A program made the position numbers and the translations under genes. Below are positions 11,130 through 18,115 of a DNA stretch of 52,610 nt, piece after piece. Below the pieces are notes generated by a model that worked only from the letters and a program-made list of their open reading frames with translations, made no database searches and had not been told where the DNA came from. The DNA is from Chloroflexota bacterium (lineage in GTDB: Bacteria; Chloroflexota; Dehalococcoidia; Bin125): the NCBI GenBank assembly GCA_028874365.1, contig JAPPJZ010000062.1, positions 1 to 52,610 of the forward strand, read 5' to 3'. Within the stretch, counting starts at the first letter, position 1. Each line of letters starts with the position of its first letter.

Positions 11130-13418
11130 TTAGTCGTCCAACAGCCGATCCAGGAGTTTTGTCGGGCTGGCGGGGAGTGAGTTCATCCTGATGCCGGTGG
11201 CGTCGTAGATCGCGTTGGCGATTGCCGCCAGGGGCGGGACGATTGGCACTTCGCCGACACCTCGGACTCCGTAGGGATGGCTCGGATTGGGCACTTCGAC
11301 CAGGATCGTCTCGATTTCCGGCAGATCCAGCGACGTGGGCATGCGGTAGTCGAGGAGGCTGGCGTTCGTCATTCGACCCTCGGGCGAATAGACGTACTCT
11401 TCGGTCAGCGCCATGCCGGCGCCTTGAGCGACGCCGCCCTGGACCTGGCCTTCAACGTAGGACGGGTGAATCGCCGTGCCGACGTCCTGGACGGCCGAGT
11501 AGCGGAGGATGTCGACTTTGCCCGTGTCGCGGTCGACCGCGACATCAACGATGTGGCAGCCGTAGGCGGGACCGGGTTGGGTCGGCAGAACGTCGGCCTG
11601 GCCCTGGATCTGACCGCCGGTTCCCGGCATTCGTCCGCACAGCTCCTTGAATGTGAACTGCTGACCGTCGGGCCCGCTGATTATGCCGTTCTCGTAGGAG
11701 ACCGCGCCGGCATCGACGTCCCAGATCATGGCTGCGCGCGCCTCCATCTGCTCGCGGACGTCCAGCGCCGCCTCGTGTACGGCGATGCCGGTGGCGTAGG
11801 CGACGCGCGAGCCGCCGGTCACGTGGGTGAAGCCGATCGAGTCCGTGTCGACGACCTGCGGGCGCACGAGGTCGTATTCGATCCCCATCGTCTCGGCGAA
11901 CTGCATCGCCAGACCGGCCCGCTGCCCGCCGATGTCGACCGAGCCGACGGAGAGATTGACCGTTCCGTCCTCGTTCACCGACGCGTAAGCGGCCGATTCC
12001 ATGCCGGCGTTGGTCCAGAAGCCCATCGAGACACCGCGACCAAGCAAGCGGCCATCCTCGTCGATTCCGATCTCAGAGCGATAGTGCGGCGAGTCGATCG
12101 CGGCCTGCATCGTCTCCTCGGCGCCGATCTTCGGCAGCACGACGCCGTCAGCGCGGCGCGTGCCCTCGTGCGCAGAATTCTGCGCACGCAGTTCCATTGG
12201 GTCGCGCTCGAGGCGCTCGGCGAGCTGATCGATCAGCGACTCGACGGCGAACGTCCCCTGCGGCGAACCGGGCGCTCGGTAGGCCTGGCACTTTGGCTTG
12301 TTGGTGACGACATCCAGCGCATCGACATAGATGTTGGGGATGTCGTAGGACGAGAACATGCAGGTCGCGCCGGCGCCCACCGGAGAGCCTGGGAACGCGC
12401 CCGCCTCGTAGGCGAGGGTGGCCTCGGCCGCGATGATCGTGCCGTCATTCTTTGCGCCGATCTTGCAGCGCACGTACGTCGCCGAAGTCGGACCGGTGCC
12501 GATCAGTACCTCTTCGCGATTCATGTACATCTTCACCGGACGGCCGGTGAGCCTCGACATGACGGCTGCCGTCGGCTCCATGTAGGCGGGCAGCTTGCCG
12601 CCGAAGCCGCCGCCGATCTCCATCGGGATCACCTTCACGTTGGCGAGCGGGATATCGAGCATCTTGCTGACCGTTGCGCGAACGGCGAACGGTCCCTGGG
12701 TGGAGACCCAGACCGTCAGGGTGCCGTCTGAGTTCCAGTGCGCGGTTCCATTCTGTGGCTCGATGTAGCCCTGGTGCGCGGCCGCGGTCTCGAACTCGCC
12801 TTCGAGGACGATATCCGCTTCTTCGAAACCCGCCGCCGGATCGCCGTGCTCGAACTCCAACTGCGAAGCGATATTGGTCTCTCGTTCGCCGCGTCCCTCG
12901 CCGGGGACGAATCGGGCGACCATCTCGACGGTCTTCATCCCATCGTGCAGAATCGGCGCGCCTTCAGCCATCGCGTCGTGTACCGAGAGCACGGGCGGCA
13001 GCACATCGTACTCGACATCGATCAAACCAAGCGCGTCTTCGGCGATGTGCGGATCGGTGGCGCAGACCGCCGCCACGGCGTGTCCCTGATAGAGCGCCTT
13101 GTCCGAGGCGAGCACGTTCTGGAGGACCCATTTGTACGGCGACACGCTCTCGCCCAGGTCAACGATCTCGTCGGTCGCGCCGGGCAGGTCTTCGTGTGTG
13201 ATGACGCACTTGACGCCGTCCAGGGCCTTCGCACGGGATGTGTCGATGCTGACGATCCGGGCGTGGGCATGCGGCGAGCGCAGGAGGCGGCCGTAAAGCA
13301 TGTCGGGCAGATTGATGTCGGCGCCATAGCGCGCCCGCCCGGTGACCTTGTCGACCCCGTCGGGGCGAAGCGGTCGGCTTCCGACGACGTTGTACGCGGG
13401 CTTCGTCTCGGTGGTCAT
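11130..13418 (-). CDS. Xanthine dehydrogenase-family molybdenum hydroxylase, large (Mo-binding) subunit
   Basis: These enzymes hydroxylate carbon centres of heterocycles or aldehydes at a Mo-pterin cofactor. Seen: 762 residues with the N-terminal aldehyde-oxidase hammerhead domain (VTGRARYGADI, LYGRLLRSPHAHARI). The Mo-binding part has STQGPFAVR, EIGGGFGGK, CQAYRAPGSPQ and the C-terminal GVRGVGE; Glu723 matches the catalytic base of the family. The AYRAPG loop is not the AYRCSFR loop of form I CO dehydrogenase, so CO is an unlikely substrate. The ATG at 13418 is preceded by GGAG seven bases upstream; an upstream TTG frame extension to 13505 has no support. Its start overlaps the stop of the ThiS/MoaD-like gene (ATGA). 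FAD and 2Fe-2S partner subunits are not in this cluster, which is unusual. Confidence 0.9.
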   Translation of the reverse strand: MTTETKPAYNVVGSRPLRPDGVDKVTGRARYGADINLPDMLYGRLLRSPHAHARIVSIDTSRAKALDGVKCVITHEDLPGATDEIVDLGESVSPYKWVLQNVLASDKALYQGHAVAAVCATDPHIAEDALGLIDVEYDVLPPVLSVHDAMAEGAPILHDGMKTVEMVARFVPGEGRGERETNIASQLEFEHGDPAAGFEEADIVLEGEFETAAAHQGYIEPQNGTAHWNSDGTLTVWVSTQGPFAVRATVSKMLDIPLANVKVIPMEIGGGFGGKLPAYMEPTAAVMSRLTGRPVKMYMNREEVLIGTGPTSATYVRCKIGAKNDGTIIAAEATLAYEAGAFPGSPVGAGATCMFSSYDIPNIYVDALDVVTNKPKCQAYRAPGSPQGTFAVESLIDQLAERLERDPMELRAQNSAHEGTRRADGVVLPKIGAEETMQAAIDSPHYRSEIGIDEDGRLLGRGVSMGFWTNAGMESAAYASVNEDGTVNLSVGSVDIGGQRAGLAMQFAETMGIEYDLVRPQVVDTDSIGFTHVTGGSRVAYATGIAVHEAALDVREQMEARAAMIWDVDAGAVSYENGIISGPDGQQFTFKELCGRMPGTGGQIQGQADVLPTQPGPAYGCHIVDVAVDRDTGKVDILRYSAVQDVGTAIHPSYVEGQVQGGVAQGAGMALTEEYVYSPEGRMTNASLLDYRMPTSLDLPEIETILVEVPNPSHPYGVRGVGEVPIVPPLAAIANAIYDATGIRMNSLPASPTKLLDRLLDD

Positions 13419-13780
13419 CGGCGGCTCCACTTCTCTGGCTCTAACGTTGGCTGGGCACTGGCGGGGACATCGGCATGATATCGGCAGGGAATCGTTGCCC
13501 GACAATCTTGACCGCCGGCCATCGCTGGGAGGATGTGGACTTCGGCGTTGGGCGGCACCTTGGCCAGCAGACCGAGCGGCTGTTCGACGCTATTGACGGC
13601 GATCGTCAGACCCCGCTTGAGGCGGTTGCCTTCGACCAGCGACTCGTGAAATCCCGGGTAGTTCGCTTCTAGGCTGTCAACTACCTCAGCGATCGTGCGC
13701 CCAGAGGCAGGCACAGTTCGCAGACCGTCGGTCAACGGCCTCATGCCGATCGGTACGAAGACGGTGATATCGGCAGTCAT
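13415..13780 (-). CDS. ThiS/MoaD-like ubiquitin-fold protein with a C-terminal tail after Gly-Gly
   Basis: ThiS/MoaD proteins carry sulfur as a C-terminal Gly-Gly thiocarboxylate for thiamine or molybdopterin synthesis. Seen: 121 residues. The first ~90 have the family pattern (ITVFVPIGMR, TIAEVVDSLEANYPGF, AVNSVEQPL, PPNAEVHILPAMAGG). In normal members the chain ends at GG; here 31 more residues follow (starting QDCRATIPCRYH). The extended stop overlaps the next gene in an ATGA arrangement, which argues that the tail is genuine. Activation would need a protease to expose GG, or this protein has lost sulfur transfer. It is flanked by a Mo hydroxylase and a MaoC protein in one operon, consistent with a role in cofactor supply to that enzyme, but this is inference. 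Confidence 0.8.
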   Translation of the reverse strand: MTADITVFVPIGMRPLTDGLRTVPASGRTIAEVVDSLEANYPGFHESLVEGNRLKRGLTIAVNSVEQPLGLLAKVPPNAEVHILPAMAGGQDCRATIPCRYHADVPASAQPTLEPEKWSRR

Positions 13781-13804: not shown

Positions 13805-14641
13805 CTAGAGCTTGAGACTGCCCTCGGCGACCACCGCGATTACACCGTTGTCCTTCTCGACCCAGCAGGCGATGTTGCGGCGCTGCGGATCGTCCTCGTT
13901 GACGCCCTGCAGGACGCCCTTCACCGCGACGGTCTCGTTCGGCCAGACGATGTTCGCGAACTTGACCAGCAGCTTGCCGGACGACTTCCAGGCGTCGCCG
14001 AAGCGTTGATCCAACAACTCGCCGATCAGCGACATCGTCATTTTGCCACCGACCACGACATCGGTGAAGCCGAGTTCCTCGGAGGCTTGCTTGTCGGTGT
14101 GGTAGTTGCGGTCGCCATGGAAGAAGGAGCCGCACATCTCAAGCGAAATGCTTCGTACCAGCGGTCCGAACGCCTCGCCCTCCGGCAGCGCGTAGCTTCT
14201 CGCGCCCTCTTTCTTCGACGGGTCGCGCAGCGTCACGTGACCCTCGCTCTGGTAGAGCACGAACGACTGGTGGTGTCGCATGGCCACGGCGATGTCGCCG
14301 ACATCGTCCTTGACCACGGTTTCGGTCAGAATCACGCTGCGGTCACGGCGCTCGTAGATGTCGATCGACCTGGCCGAAGCCTCGTAGCTTCCTCCGGGCT
14401 TGAGCGGCTTGCGGAAATCCCACTCCTGGCGCAGCCAGAGATTGCCGAAGTCGTTCGCGTAGTGCATACGGGTTGAGAGGTCGGCGTTGGCGGCGACCAT
14501 CGAGGGCGCGCTCTCAAGTTCGCCCGGCCGCTCGAGCTCGAGGCCCTCGAAATAGTCGCTTAGAGCGGTCTCGTCGATGACGACGGTTGCGGATCCGAGG
14601 TCGACGCCGGCTTGCGGATCTTCAAACTTGGTGATGGCCAC
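13805..14641 (-). CDS. Double-hotdog MaoC-like hydratase
   Basis: Seen: 278 residues with two hotdog-like halves. The C-terminal half carries the hydratase signature RNYHTDKQASEELGFTDVVVGGKM, in which the histidine and the following aspartate match the MaoC active-site helix and GG starts the long conserved helix. The N-terminal half (about 1-140) is the substrate-binding, non-catalytic repeat. Such double-hotdog proteins hydrate bulky enoyl-CoAs. The start is a GTG with AGAGGA eight bases upstream. First gene of the operon that continues 24 bases later with the ThiS/MoaD-like protein and then the Mo hydroxylase. Together these suggest oxidation of an unsaturated or cyclic acid, with the substrate unresolved. 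Confidence 0.78.
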   Translation of the reverse strand: MAITKFEDPQAGVDLGSATVVIDETALSDYFEGLELERPGELESAPSMVAANADLSTRMHYANDFGNLWLRQEWDFRKPLKPGGSYEASARSIDIYERRDRSVILTETVVKDDVGDIAVAMRHHQSFVLYQSEGHVTLRDPSKKEGARSYALPEGEAFGPLVRSISLEMCGSFFHGDRNYHTDKQASEELGFTDVVVGGKMTMSLIGELLDQRFGDAWKSSGKLLVKFANIVWPNETVAVKGVLQGVNEDDPQRRNIACWVEKDNGVIAVVAEGSLKL

Positions 14642-14713: not shown

Positions 14714-17700
14714 CTAGCCGGAGGACGGCTGCAGCCAGTCGACGTCAGGAGAGTCGAGGAAGATCCAGAGCGGCTGGTCGTGACTGATCGTCCGCAGGGA
14801 GTTGAGGTGCGGAGGCAGACTGGTCGAGAACAGTCGCCATTGCTGCTGATTCGCGTCCCAGGAGTAGACGCGGAGCGTTGCGCCGGCGAGCGGGGCGAGC
14901 GCATTGGTTACCCGCGTCGTCGGTCCGCTCCAGGTGACGAAGTTCCACCCCTGCCGTAACCGGACGAGTCGCTCCGCCCGGTACTCGAAGCCGTTTTCGA
15001 CCAGGATCGGGCGCTCGCCGGTCAGCAGCAGCGCGACGTCCGTTCGACCGGCGGCCGCAGGCGGCGTCGTGACCGTCACGCATTGCTCCGACCAGAACGC
15101 GACCCGCGCCTGCTGATTTCCGAACCAGACCCTTGGCGCCATCGCGTCGGTGGCCAGGCCGGCGCCGCAAATCTGGACGGATTCGCCTCCTTCGACGTAT
15201 CCGCGAGCCGGGGTAATGCTGGTGATGTTGCCCTGCGGAGAAACGGGCCACGCTTCGCTCTCGGACGTGGCATAGCCCGACCCGCTGTGACCGATCACGG
15301 AAAACTCCGAGGTCAGTGCATCGACGCCGATGTCCTCGAAGCGGAACTGGCCGTCGACGACCGGAACCGCAGCGACGAACCGGCGATCGTTGCGGGGACC
15401 GGCGTAGAGGTGAATGGTCGTCGCGTGCGGCGCCAAACCGGCGACGTCGAGACCGGCCGCGCTCCAGCGGTAGTCCTCAATCACCGGCGCGCTCAGCGTC
15501 GAGGCAATGTTCGAGCGATTGCCCTGGAGCCGATTGCCCCAGATGACCCGCCTGCCCGAGTGCGCCGCTGGGGTCGGTGCCGCGGTACGAATATCGATTC
15601 CCACCTGGTTGTCACGGATCAGGTTGGCCGCATCGGTGAAGTCGGTCCTGCCGTTCGCCGGGGCCAGCATTGACGCCGTCGTCGTCCGCAGGGTGACTAT
15701 CGAGTCGGCGCCGGCGGCGAAGTTGAGCCGCTCAGCGATCGCAGCATTGTTGACCGCAAACCGCAACTCGGTGCCTGGACCGATGACCGTCGCGCTGAAC
15801 CCGGCGAAATCGTCAACGCTCACCGATGCAGCGAGCCGCCGATCCAGATAGATGTCCACCGATGTGCCTGTCGGCGCCGGCAGACCGTCGATGCTGACCG
15901 TTCCCGCAACGCGGTGCGAGCGGCCGGTTCGAGGCTCGATAGCGGCCGAATCGATCGGGCCAATCGGCGGCCAGGACAGACTGGCCGAGGCCAGCACCGG
16001 CGGATCCTCGAATGGCCCGATGAGCACATCGCCCGCGGCGGGGTCGATACTCACGCCGGCGGCGCGGTTCCGTTCAATCATGCTGGCCGAAATGGAGGCG
16101 GACGCGGCCGGTCCCACGACGATGCCGTCCGCGGCGCTGTTGACGATGCGGGCAGCATCGATTCGCGCGTTTGAGCCGGCCACCACGATGCCGATCTGGT
16201 TGTATCGGGTCTCGACGTTCGAGACTCGCGTATTGTCACCGCTGAGTCGGATGGCAGCGTCGTTCGCGCCGTACACGGTCAGCCCCCACACTTCAGCGCC
16301 GTCCCCAAGTTCAAGACCCACGTCAACAGCGGACGCATCGATGCTCCAATCGGTGCCGTCAAGGATGGTGTCCGCCGCGACGACAGGAAGTGGAGACTCC
16401 AACACGATGGTTGGTGCTGATCGGTCGCTCTGGAAGAGGATGAACCTGGCGCCGCTCGACAGGGCCTGCCTGAGCGTCCCGGGACCGTTGTCCGCCTCGG
16501 ATGTGACGACCGCCGCGCCGTCCCTGGCAAGGTCAAGCGCTGCATCGGCATCAATCAGTCCTGCGCCTGAGGCCATGTCACGACCCAGCGGGGGAACATC
16601 GACGGCCGTGTCGATCAGGATCTCGCGGATCAGTCGTCGCTCAAGGATGGCGTCCCCGCCGTCGAGCGAGAGCAGCGCCGGTTGAGCCTCGAGCAACAAC
16701 GCCGCCACACCGGCGACGTGAGGTGCCGCCGCCGATGAGCCCGAGAAGCGTGGCGCAAAGCGCGTCGTGTCGGAAACTGTCACGCGGTCGACGGCGCTGA
16801 TCTCAGGCTTACGGTCTCCGTTGACTGTCGGTCCTCGGCTCGAGTAAGGCGCCACCCTCTGCTCGCCGACGTTCACGGCGCCGACCGTGAGCGCGCCGTC
16901 GGCATCGGATTGGGCGAGGATGCTGCCCTCGGCCGTACGGTGGTGCAGGCGAAGCTGGACCCCGCCGAGATGGAAGGCGAAGAGGTCGAAGTTTACCGAA
17001 GCGGCATCGTCGTTGTGGTTCTGGATGACGACGTAGACGTAGATTGCCTCGCCCTCATGCACGTACTCCAGGTGCTCACGTGGATAGTGATTGAGGATGC
17101 CGATGCCCTGGCGCGTCTCGCTCGAGGCCAGGATGATGCCGACGCCCGACATGAGGTAGAGGTCGTAGTCGTTGGTCGATCCGCCCCATTGATCGTCCCA
17201 GAACAACGCCAGACGGATGTGAGCGCCCGGTTCAACGCGGATGCCGTTGCCGGCCCCGAACAGAGGCTCCGGCCCGCCTGCGGCGCTGAACGCATGCACC
17301 GTCCCAGGCTGTGGCAGTCCGAGGTCGGACGCGCTCACACCGGCGCGCCAGGGTCCGGCCCAGTGCGATTCTGCCCAGTTGCCCGCCGCGGTCACGTAGA
17401 GTCGCAACGGCCAGTTGGGATGTTCCAGGGCGCGCGTGGTATTCACTGAGACGTCGCTGCGCTGATCGGCGGGGAAGGCATACGACACGTCGTCGACAAT
17501 GATGTCCACATATCGCGCGTAGTGGTTGACGGCGGCGATGTGATCGAGATCGGTTGTGACAGCCGCGAAGGAGATTTCGGCGCCCGGTGCAAGATCGTGG
17601 ACGATCTCGATCATCACGGTGCCCTCCTGGCCTCGGTTGAGATCGCCAGCGCCGAACGCCCTCGCGTCGACCAGTTTGGGAGCCTCCCCGGCGCGCTGCG

Positions 17701-18115
17701 CCTGTTCGAGTCCCTTGATGCCATCCGAAATCACCGCGACCCGAATCCCGGATCCGTCGACATTGAATCGCGTGCGGGCCAGTGAGGCGTTGAGCGCCTC
17801 ATCGCCCTCCGTCAGTGCGCTGCCAGCGGCGAAGCTCGCATAGAGCGGGCGCTGGACCGCGACGACACCATCGATCTCCAACAGCTCGTCGATTCGGCTC
17901 GCGTCCAGCCAGCCTTGCCACCGACCGAGCTCCGGAACCACGAGCTCGATCTCCAGGCCCGCCTCAGTCAGGAGACGCTCGGTCTGCGGTCCGGATTGTT
18001 CGACTCGCACATCGAGGTGTACACGGACCTCAGCCGCCCGTGCTTGTTGGGAAAGCAGGCCACCGATCGCCGTCAGGAGAACCGCGAGGCACAGGAGAGG
18101 TAAGGCGCGTCGCAT
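14714..18115 (-). CDS. Large secreted S8/S53-like serine protease with parallel-repeat, TIG and GxN(F/L)V modules
   Basis: Seen: 1133 residues with a signal peptide (1-27). A subtilisin/sedolisin-fold catalytic domain spans about 120-530: Asp131 in VISDGIKG, Glu164 in GQEGTVMIEIVHDLAPGA where subtilisins have the catalytic His, and Ser461 in GSSAAAPHVAG. The Ser-Glu-Asp set resembles the S53-like subgroup. About 555-720 has NTRVSNVETRYN-type repeats expected of a right-handed beta-helix. About 1010-1080 is an IPT/TIG domain (ITSITPARGYVEGG). The last 80 residues are a GWNFVTWSGP...LWIFL...WLQPS module also found in the zincin at 33412. No cell-wall sorting motif; the C-terminal module may serve in anchoring. 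It has its own leaderless-type promoter and does not appear to be in an operon. Confidence 0.85.
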   Translation of the reverse strand: MRRALPLLCLAVLLTAIGGLLSQQARAAEVRVHLDVRVEQSGPQTERLLTEAGLEIELVVPELGRWQGWLDASRIDELLEIDGVVAVQRPLYASFAAGSALTEGDEALNASLARTRFNVDGSGIRVAVISDGIKGLEQAQRAGEAPKLVDARAFGAGDLNRGQEGTVMIEIVHDLAPGAEISFAAVTTDLDHIAAVNHYARYVDIIVDDVSYAFPADQRSDVSVNTTRALEHPNWPLRLYVTAAGNWAESHWAGPWRAGVSASDLGLPQPGTVHAFSAAGGPEPLFGAGNGIRVEPGAHIRLALFWDDQWGGSTNDYDLYLMSGVGIILASSETRQGIGILNHYPREHLEYVHEGEAIYVYVVIQNHNDDAASVNFDLFAFHLGGVQLRLHHRTAEGSILAQSDADGALTVGAVNVGEQRVAPYSSRGPTVNGDRKPEISAVDRVTVSDTTRFAPRFSGSSAAAPHVAGVAALLLEAQPALLSLDGGDAILERRLIREILIDTAVDVPPLGRDMASGAGLIDADAALDLARDGAAVVTSEADNGPGTLRQALSSGARFILFQSDRSAPTIVLESPLPVVAADTILDGTDWSIDASAVDVGLELGDGAEVWGLTVYGANDAAIRLSGDNTRVSNVETRYNQIGIVVAGSNARIDAARIVNSAADGIVVGPAASASISASMIERNRAAGVSIDPAAGDVLIGPFEDPPVLASASLSWPPIGPIDSAAIEPRTGRSHRVAGTVSIDGLPAPTGTSVDIYLDRRLAASVSVDDFAGFSATVIGPGTELRFAVNNAAIAERLNFAAGADSIVTLRTTTASMLAPANGRTDFTDAANLIRDNQVGIDIRTAAPTPAAHSGRRVIWGNRLQGNRSNIASTLSAPVIEDYRWSAAGLDVAGLAPHATTIHLYAGPRNDRRFVAAVPVVDGQFRFEDIGVDALTSEFSVIGHSGSGYATSESEAWPVSPQGNITSITPARGYVEGGESVQICGAGLATDAMAPRVWFGNQQARVAFWSEQCVTVTTPPAAAGRTDVALLLTGERPILVENGFEYRAERLVRLRQGWNFVTWSGPTTRVTNALAPLAGATLRVYSWDANQQQWRLFSTSLPPHLNSLRTISHDQPLWIFLDSPDVDWLQPSSG

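Follow-up and report, generated by a model that had tools for sequence, protein, structure and literature searches.

A MoaD-type sulfur carrier of an uncultured Chloroflexota bacterium with an unconserved read-through tail after its Gly-Gly, probably tolerated through trimming

A Gly-Gly as the encoded C-terminus is a trait of classical, unprocessed ThiS/MoaD proteins, and known fused or extended members break this rule. Carriers of the QbsE/QbsD and HcyS/HcyD types have one or two residues after the Gly-Gly which are removed by a JAMM protease, with carrier, JAMM and E1 encoded in one operon and with a fixed extension. The carrier described here, encoded in a window of 52,610 nucleotides (the whole stretch of DNA analysed), resembles them in its group's short extensions, two extra residues being common among orthologs of the genus, but differs in that the JAMM is encoded remotely and in that the length of the extension has drifted between 0 and 35 residues.

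Among fused carriers, HvJAMM1 of Haloferax cleaves SAMP1-MoaE exactly after the terminal Gly (PMC4443979) and DRJAMM of Deinococcus cleaves MoaD-MoaE (PMC8832034). The window's genome, G000, is similar in combining a MoaD-type carrier that has residues after its Gly-Gly with a desampylase-like JAMM, and it has a MoaD-MoaE fusion of its own; the difference is that the extension is not a folded partner but an unconserved tail drawn from the leader of the next gene, whose cleavage is presumed. In MoaX of M. tuberculosis, a cut between Gly82 and Ser83 is required for the protein to work (PMC4326299). The internal Gly-Gly of a MoaD unit, after whose second Gly MoaX must be cut to be active, is shared by the window's carrier, which, unlike this MoaE fusion, has a random tail of 31 residues. 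Finally, operon type 4c of Iyer et al. 2006 comprises ThiS/MoaD, E1, JAB and cysteine synthase, the JAB being predicted to free the fused ThiS/MoaD (PMC1779556). A cluster on contig 51 of G000 has the same components, whereas the window's carrier lies outside it, beside a MaoC-like protein and a Mo hydroxylase.

The carrier and its Gly-Gly domain

The residues beyond the Gly-Gly from which the sequence-only reading had started were confirmed: the protein runs ...HILPAMAGG, then QDCRATIPCRYHADVPASAQPTLEPEKWSRR, then the stop TGA, with the Gly-Gly at residues 89-90 and two cysteines (Cys93 and Cys99) in the tail (Table 1). Assignment to the ThiS/MoaD beta-grasp family is based on a Pfam ThiS match over residues 20-90 that passed the gathering score (7e-7, 30.1 bits against a cut-off of 22.5) and on the Gly-Gly at the end of the domain, which is invariant among all aligned orthologs; the family trait from which the carrier departs is the Gly-Gly as encoded C-terminus. 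The nearest NCBIfam models, SAMP1 (5e-6) and moaD_arch for the archaeal-type MoaD (8e-6), both scored below their cut-offs. E1-like genes are encoded in G000, and its MoaD-MoaE fusion is separate from the carrier, beside which no MoaE was recognised in the ORF list, itself not systematically annotated. Structure prediction with 13 shallow sequences gave a mean pLDDT of 37 and a pTM of 0.27, and no conclusion was drawn from the model.

Over the last 88 codons to the Gly-Gly, dN/dS was 0.078 between the window and its sister species G001, 0.087 for the pair G003/G004 and 0.080 for G006/G007. The Gly-Gly domain is under strong purifying selection, with no decay of the tailed proteins; the carrier as a pseudogene is ruled out by a dN/dS of 0.08.

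Table 1. Features of the carrier locus (window positions unless a contig is given) and of the sulfur cluster.
Feature	Position	Strand	Remarks
MoaD/ThiS-like ORF	13780-13415	minus	121 aa; 31 codons past Gly-Gly to TGA
Beta-grasp sulfur-carrier domain, MoaD/ThiS-like	13511..13780	minus	Residues 1-90, end AMAGG; profile match
Read-through tail QDCRATIPCRYHADVPASAQPTLEPEKWSRR	13418..13510	minus	31 codons; confined to this species; shares its DNA with the Mo-hydroxylase leader
TATCAT, -10-like element within tail codons	13475..13480	minus	Probably part of the Mo-hydroxylase promoter
GGAG, ribosome-binding site of the Mo-hydroxylase gene, within tail codons	13425..13428	minus	Ortholog conservation
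TGA stop of the extended ORF, within ATGA	13415..13417	minus	Sequence
Mo-hydroxylase large subunit (xanthine dehydrogenase family)	11130..13418	minus	762 aa; Pfam Ald_Xan_dh_C, MoCoBD_1, MoCoBD_2
MaoC-like hotdog protein	13805..14641	minus	278 aa; Pfam MaoC_dehydratas 3.5e-9; upstream of carrier
Subtilase-like protein (by eye)	14714-18115	minus	1133 aa; directly upstream of MaoC
Sulfur cluster (L067)	G000 contig 51, 17957-23093		ThiS-ThiF fusion (362 aa), MoaD-like protein ending GGSR, cysteine synthase (CysM), rhodanese; further PaREP1-like protein, MT-A70-like methyltransferase, JAMM

The tail, the leader of the next gene and the neighbourhood

As the sequence stands the tail would be translated, since there is no in-frame stop between the Gly-Gly and the TGA. 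Stretches of 31 stop-free codons are found in 54% of the non-coding frames of the window. The codon score of the tail, -0.26 per codon, is ordinary for non-coding frames, while only 0.24% of 31-codon coding stretches are as low; GC3 is 0.55 in the tail, 0.74 in the carrier domain and 0.81 in genes. The TGA of the carrier (13417-13415) overlaps the ATG of the Mo hydroxylase (13418-13416) as ATGA, an overlap which had been taken as an argument that the tail is real. This argument was not borne out, because ATGAC begins every one of the 15 aligned orthologous Mo-hydroxylase genes and a read-through would consequently end at that TGA with a chance of about 1 in 3, which makes the overlap weak evidence for a functional tail.

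The tail codons also coincide with elements of the Mo-hydroxylase leader. Each of the 14 genus loci extending as far as the Mo-hydroxylase gene has TATCCT or TATCAT (TATCMT) at 31-62 nt ahead of the gene's ATG, the background rate for the longer ATATCMT being 5 in 3000 random 30-nt stretches. The TATCMT element is probably part of the promoter of the Mo hydroxylase, and the assignment to it of the window's TATCAT, at 62 nt the farthest from the ATG among the genus loci, is likely though not certain. GGAG or GGGAG stands ahead of the ATG in nearly all orthologs.

As far as the contigs reach, gene order in the genus is subtilase-like protein, MaoC, carrier and Mo hydroxylase (the NCBIfam XdhA match of the last, 8e-142, being below the cut-off), and the Mo hydroxylase lies downstream of the carrier in every genus locus that extends to it. 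The subtilase-like gene is kept at this place in most genus genomes, as far as their contigs allow. The sequence-only reading had also offered the carrier as dedicated to the adjacent molybdenum enzyme, and this is unsupported, because MaoC is the stable upstream neighbour (24 bp away in the window, 19-33 bp over the genus), while the spacing between carrier and Mo hydroxylase ranges over 75-2221 bp and frequently includes a further gene. Conserved co-transcription with the Mo hydroxylase, as expected of a dedicated accessory protein, is accordingly not observed, given the variable gap and the convergent gene lying between in several relatives. This small convergent gene, seen at L052, L055, L063 and others and absent from the window, encodes a product of about 88-130 aa with a VIAILIAVL-like end, and its stop overlaps that of the carrier in several genomes.

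Residues after the Gly-Gly in the genus and the phylum

The carrier of G000 was compared with those of 14 relatives of the same genus, one ortholog each from the same neighbourhood, which are 62-88% identical to it. After the invariant Gly-Gly, these 15 genomes encode 0, 2, 3, 9, 18, 20, 31 (window) or 35 residues without shared sequence; the end is exactly at the Gly-Gly in four of them, and five have two extra residues (AT, AR, VV, AG and KC). Sister pairs, taken from a tree of MaoC and carrier, have unequal tails (31/0 in G000/G001, 20/2 in G003/G004 and 18/3 in G006/G007). The codon after the Gly-Gly is CAA in the window and TAA in G001, which stops exactly there, so that the lost stop might be due to one substitution. 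The window's tail occurs in its own species alone. An apparent RATI match to the tail of G003 was not above shuffles (237 of 2000 as good), and therefore a common origin of their first tail codons is not established.

The tail is conserved neither in length nor in sequence, and the idea that it is a meaningful conserved element finds no support, with no counterpart in any ortholog and a codon usage like that of non-coding DNA. A conserved domain is likewise ruled out, as the tail is shared by no ortholog. The outcome that would have undone the sequence-only reading, namely homologs ending at the Gly-Gly and a tail due to a sequencing frameshift, was found in its first half, since close homologs do end there; its second half was not, because frame 0 stays open and the stops of close orthologs, directly after the Gly-Gly or two codons later, lie in that very frame. 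No frameshift is needed, and stop loss would explain the tail instead.

Ten ThiS-family loci were found in G000. Thiazole ThiS, serving as internal control, ends exactly at the Gly-Gly in 15 of the 15 genus genomes. Extension is not universal in the other groups either, because C76 still has the exact end in 13 of 15 of the same JAMM-bearing genomes; the figure is 10/15 for C43, 7/15 for C81 and 4/15 for the window's group, and it is zero for C51b (0/12, with 1-16 extra residues) and C80 (0/14, with 2-17). All twelve C51a loci seen encode a ThiS-ThiF fusion, and C50 in G000 is the MoaD-MoaE fusion. Several MoaD-like groups of the genus, and never thiazole ThiS, carry unconserved residues after the Gly-Gly, and the window's case is one extreme of this common state. 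The extensions of the C80-type group (G000 contig 80, 173638-173910; orthologs L154-L166) are mostly 12-14 residues long and hydrophilic, and look selected in length, unlike those of the window's group.

The protease that processing of such a precursor would call for was found in the same cell. Each of the 15 genus genomes has one strong Prok-JAB/JAMM match, and that of G000 (contig 51, 7.6e-19) has the full E...HxH-x7-S-x2-D motif intact (E23 and HSH-x7-S-x2-D). It does not share an operon with the carrier, which is on contig 21. The MT-A70 gene beside the JAMM is an odd neighbour. In the ThiS-ThiF and MoaD-MoaE fusions of G000, the carriers would need a cut after the Gly-Gly.

Outside the genus, 36 MoaD-like proteins were sampled from genomes of the class that carry a JAMM, and of these 16 end exactly at the Gly-Gly and 20 have 1-11 extra residues. 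Genomes of the phylum were taken as JAMM-lacking by a profile threshold (best PF14464 E-value above 1e-10, including G053 with a weak hit), and there 24 of the 25 Gly-Gly-bearing ThiS-family proteins, a few hits without Gly-Gly having been set aside, end exactly, the exception being longer by one Ala. At the protein level the difference between 24/25 and 16/36 gave a Fisher p of 2e-5, for JAMM-lacking genomes that are few and phylogenetically clustered and for proteins mostly of different subtypes. Per genus, counted by hand from tables, the exact end was found in 12/13 without JAMM against 16/34 with it (p = 0.007), and in the PPxSGG subtype, a split chosen after the data had been seen, in 6/6 against 0/3 (p = 0.012). 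Post-Gly-Gly extensions in MoaD-like proteins thus associate with JAMM presence over the phylum, as a correlation only. The proteolytic activation proposed from the sequence is supported indirectly by the extensions found throughout the genus, the JAMM, the fusions with internal Gly-Gly and this association, with cleavage itself still presumed.

Stop loss, its rivals and its meaning for sulfur carriers

We consider it fairly probable that the tail results from loss of a stop and is tolerated because the group's carriers are cleaved behind the Gly-Gly, most likely by the JAMM. Against this count the place of the JAMM gene on another contig and the exact end that C76 mostly keeps in the same genomes. 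The functional part of this MoaD-type carrier would end at Gly90, and a stop codon that once followed the Gly-Gly would have been lost in this species, so that translation would continue into the leader of the Mo-hydroxylase gene and, 31 codons on, stop by chance in the ATGA. The tail would probably be tolerated through the trimming of the group's carriers after the Gly-Gly, the cutter most likely being the single clear JAMM metalloprotease of the cell, acting ahead of adenylation by E1 and of thiocarboxylation. On this view the tail arose by accident, through stop loss, and is not an evolved part; the stop-loss origin, the trimming by JAMM and the work of the freed Gly-Gly as a sulfur carrier are what we infer from these comparisons.

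The tail might also be tolerated without trimming, in a paralog that is no longer a thiocarboxylated carrier and whose Gly-Gly is a structural or recognition element. The frequency of tails of any length would fit such a paralog, as would the carrier's place as the weakest ThiS-family locus of G000 above the Pfam cut-off (30 bits) and the fact that no dedicated E1 was seen beside it. However, the Gly-Gly is kept in all orthologs including the tailed ones, albeit at the end of the domain, and this together with the JAMM association and the strong purifying selection on the domain makes loss of carrier function rather unlikely. The missing stop might instead be a sequencing or assembly error, by which CAA would stand for TAA and the real protein would end at the Gly-Gly: G000 is a draft of 82 contigs and one base separates its CAA from the TAA of G001. 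But four other genus genomes have tails of 9, 18, 20 and 35 residues, and other paralog groups and families likewise run several residues past the Gly-Gly. That each of these sites should independently be wrong is implausible, although an error at any one of them is possible, and for the window an error appears quite unlikely.

The notion of the tail as a functional element, for instance a tag carrying the cysteines or a docking peptide, which commits the carrier to the Mo hydroxylase beside it, draws on the adjacency and ATGA overlap in the window and on the downstream presence of that enzyme in every genus locus long enough to include it. It is largely contradicted already and must be regarded as very improbable: the tail is unconserved with non-coding codon usage, in many relatives carrier and Mo hydroxylase are kept apart by another gene or by up to 2.2 kb, the Mo hydroxylase possesses a leader element of its own, and MaoC is the tightly kept neighbour.

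Returning to stop loss with trimming, its wider form is that in JAMM-bearing bacteria the MoaD-like carriers have been freed as a class from selection to end at the Gly-Gly, whereas thiazole ThiS, being unprocessed, still must; this we put forward tentatively, as a distinct possibility. JAMM processing of fused carriers has so far been known case by case. If the wider form is true, a broad Gly-Gly endopeptidase would mature MoaD-like carriers whatever follows, so that stops could be lost and random tails accumulate, and fusions such as ThiS-ThiF and MoaD-MoaE would arise easily. One protease would then set the freedom of carrier C-termini to evolve, which would account for the origin of precursor-type ubiquitin-like proteins and of carrier fusions even where the tail itself is not selected for. 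For annotators, the Gly-Gly need not be the encoded end of a carrier.
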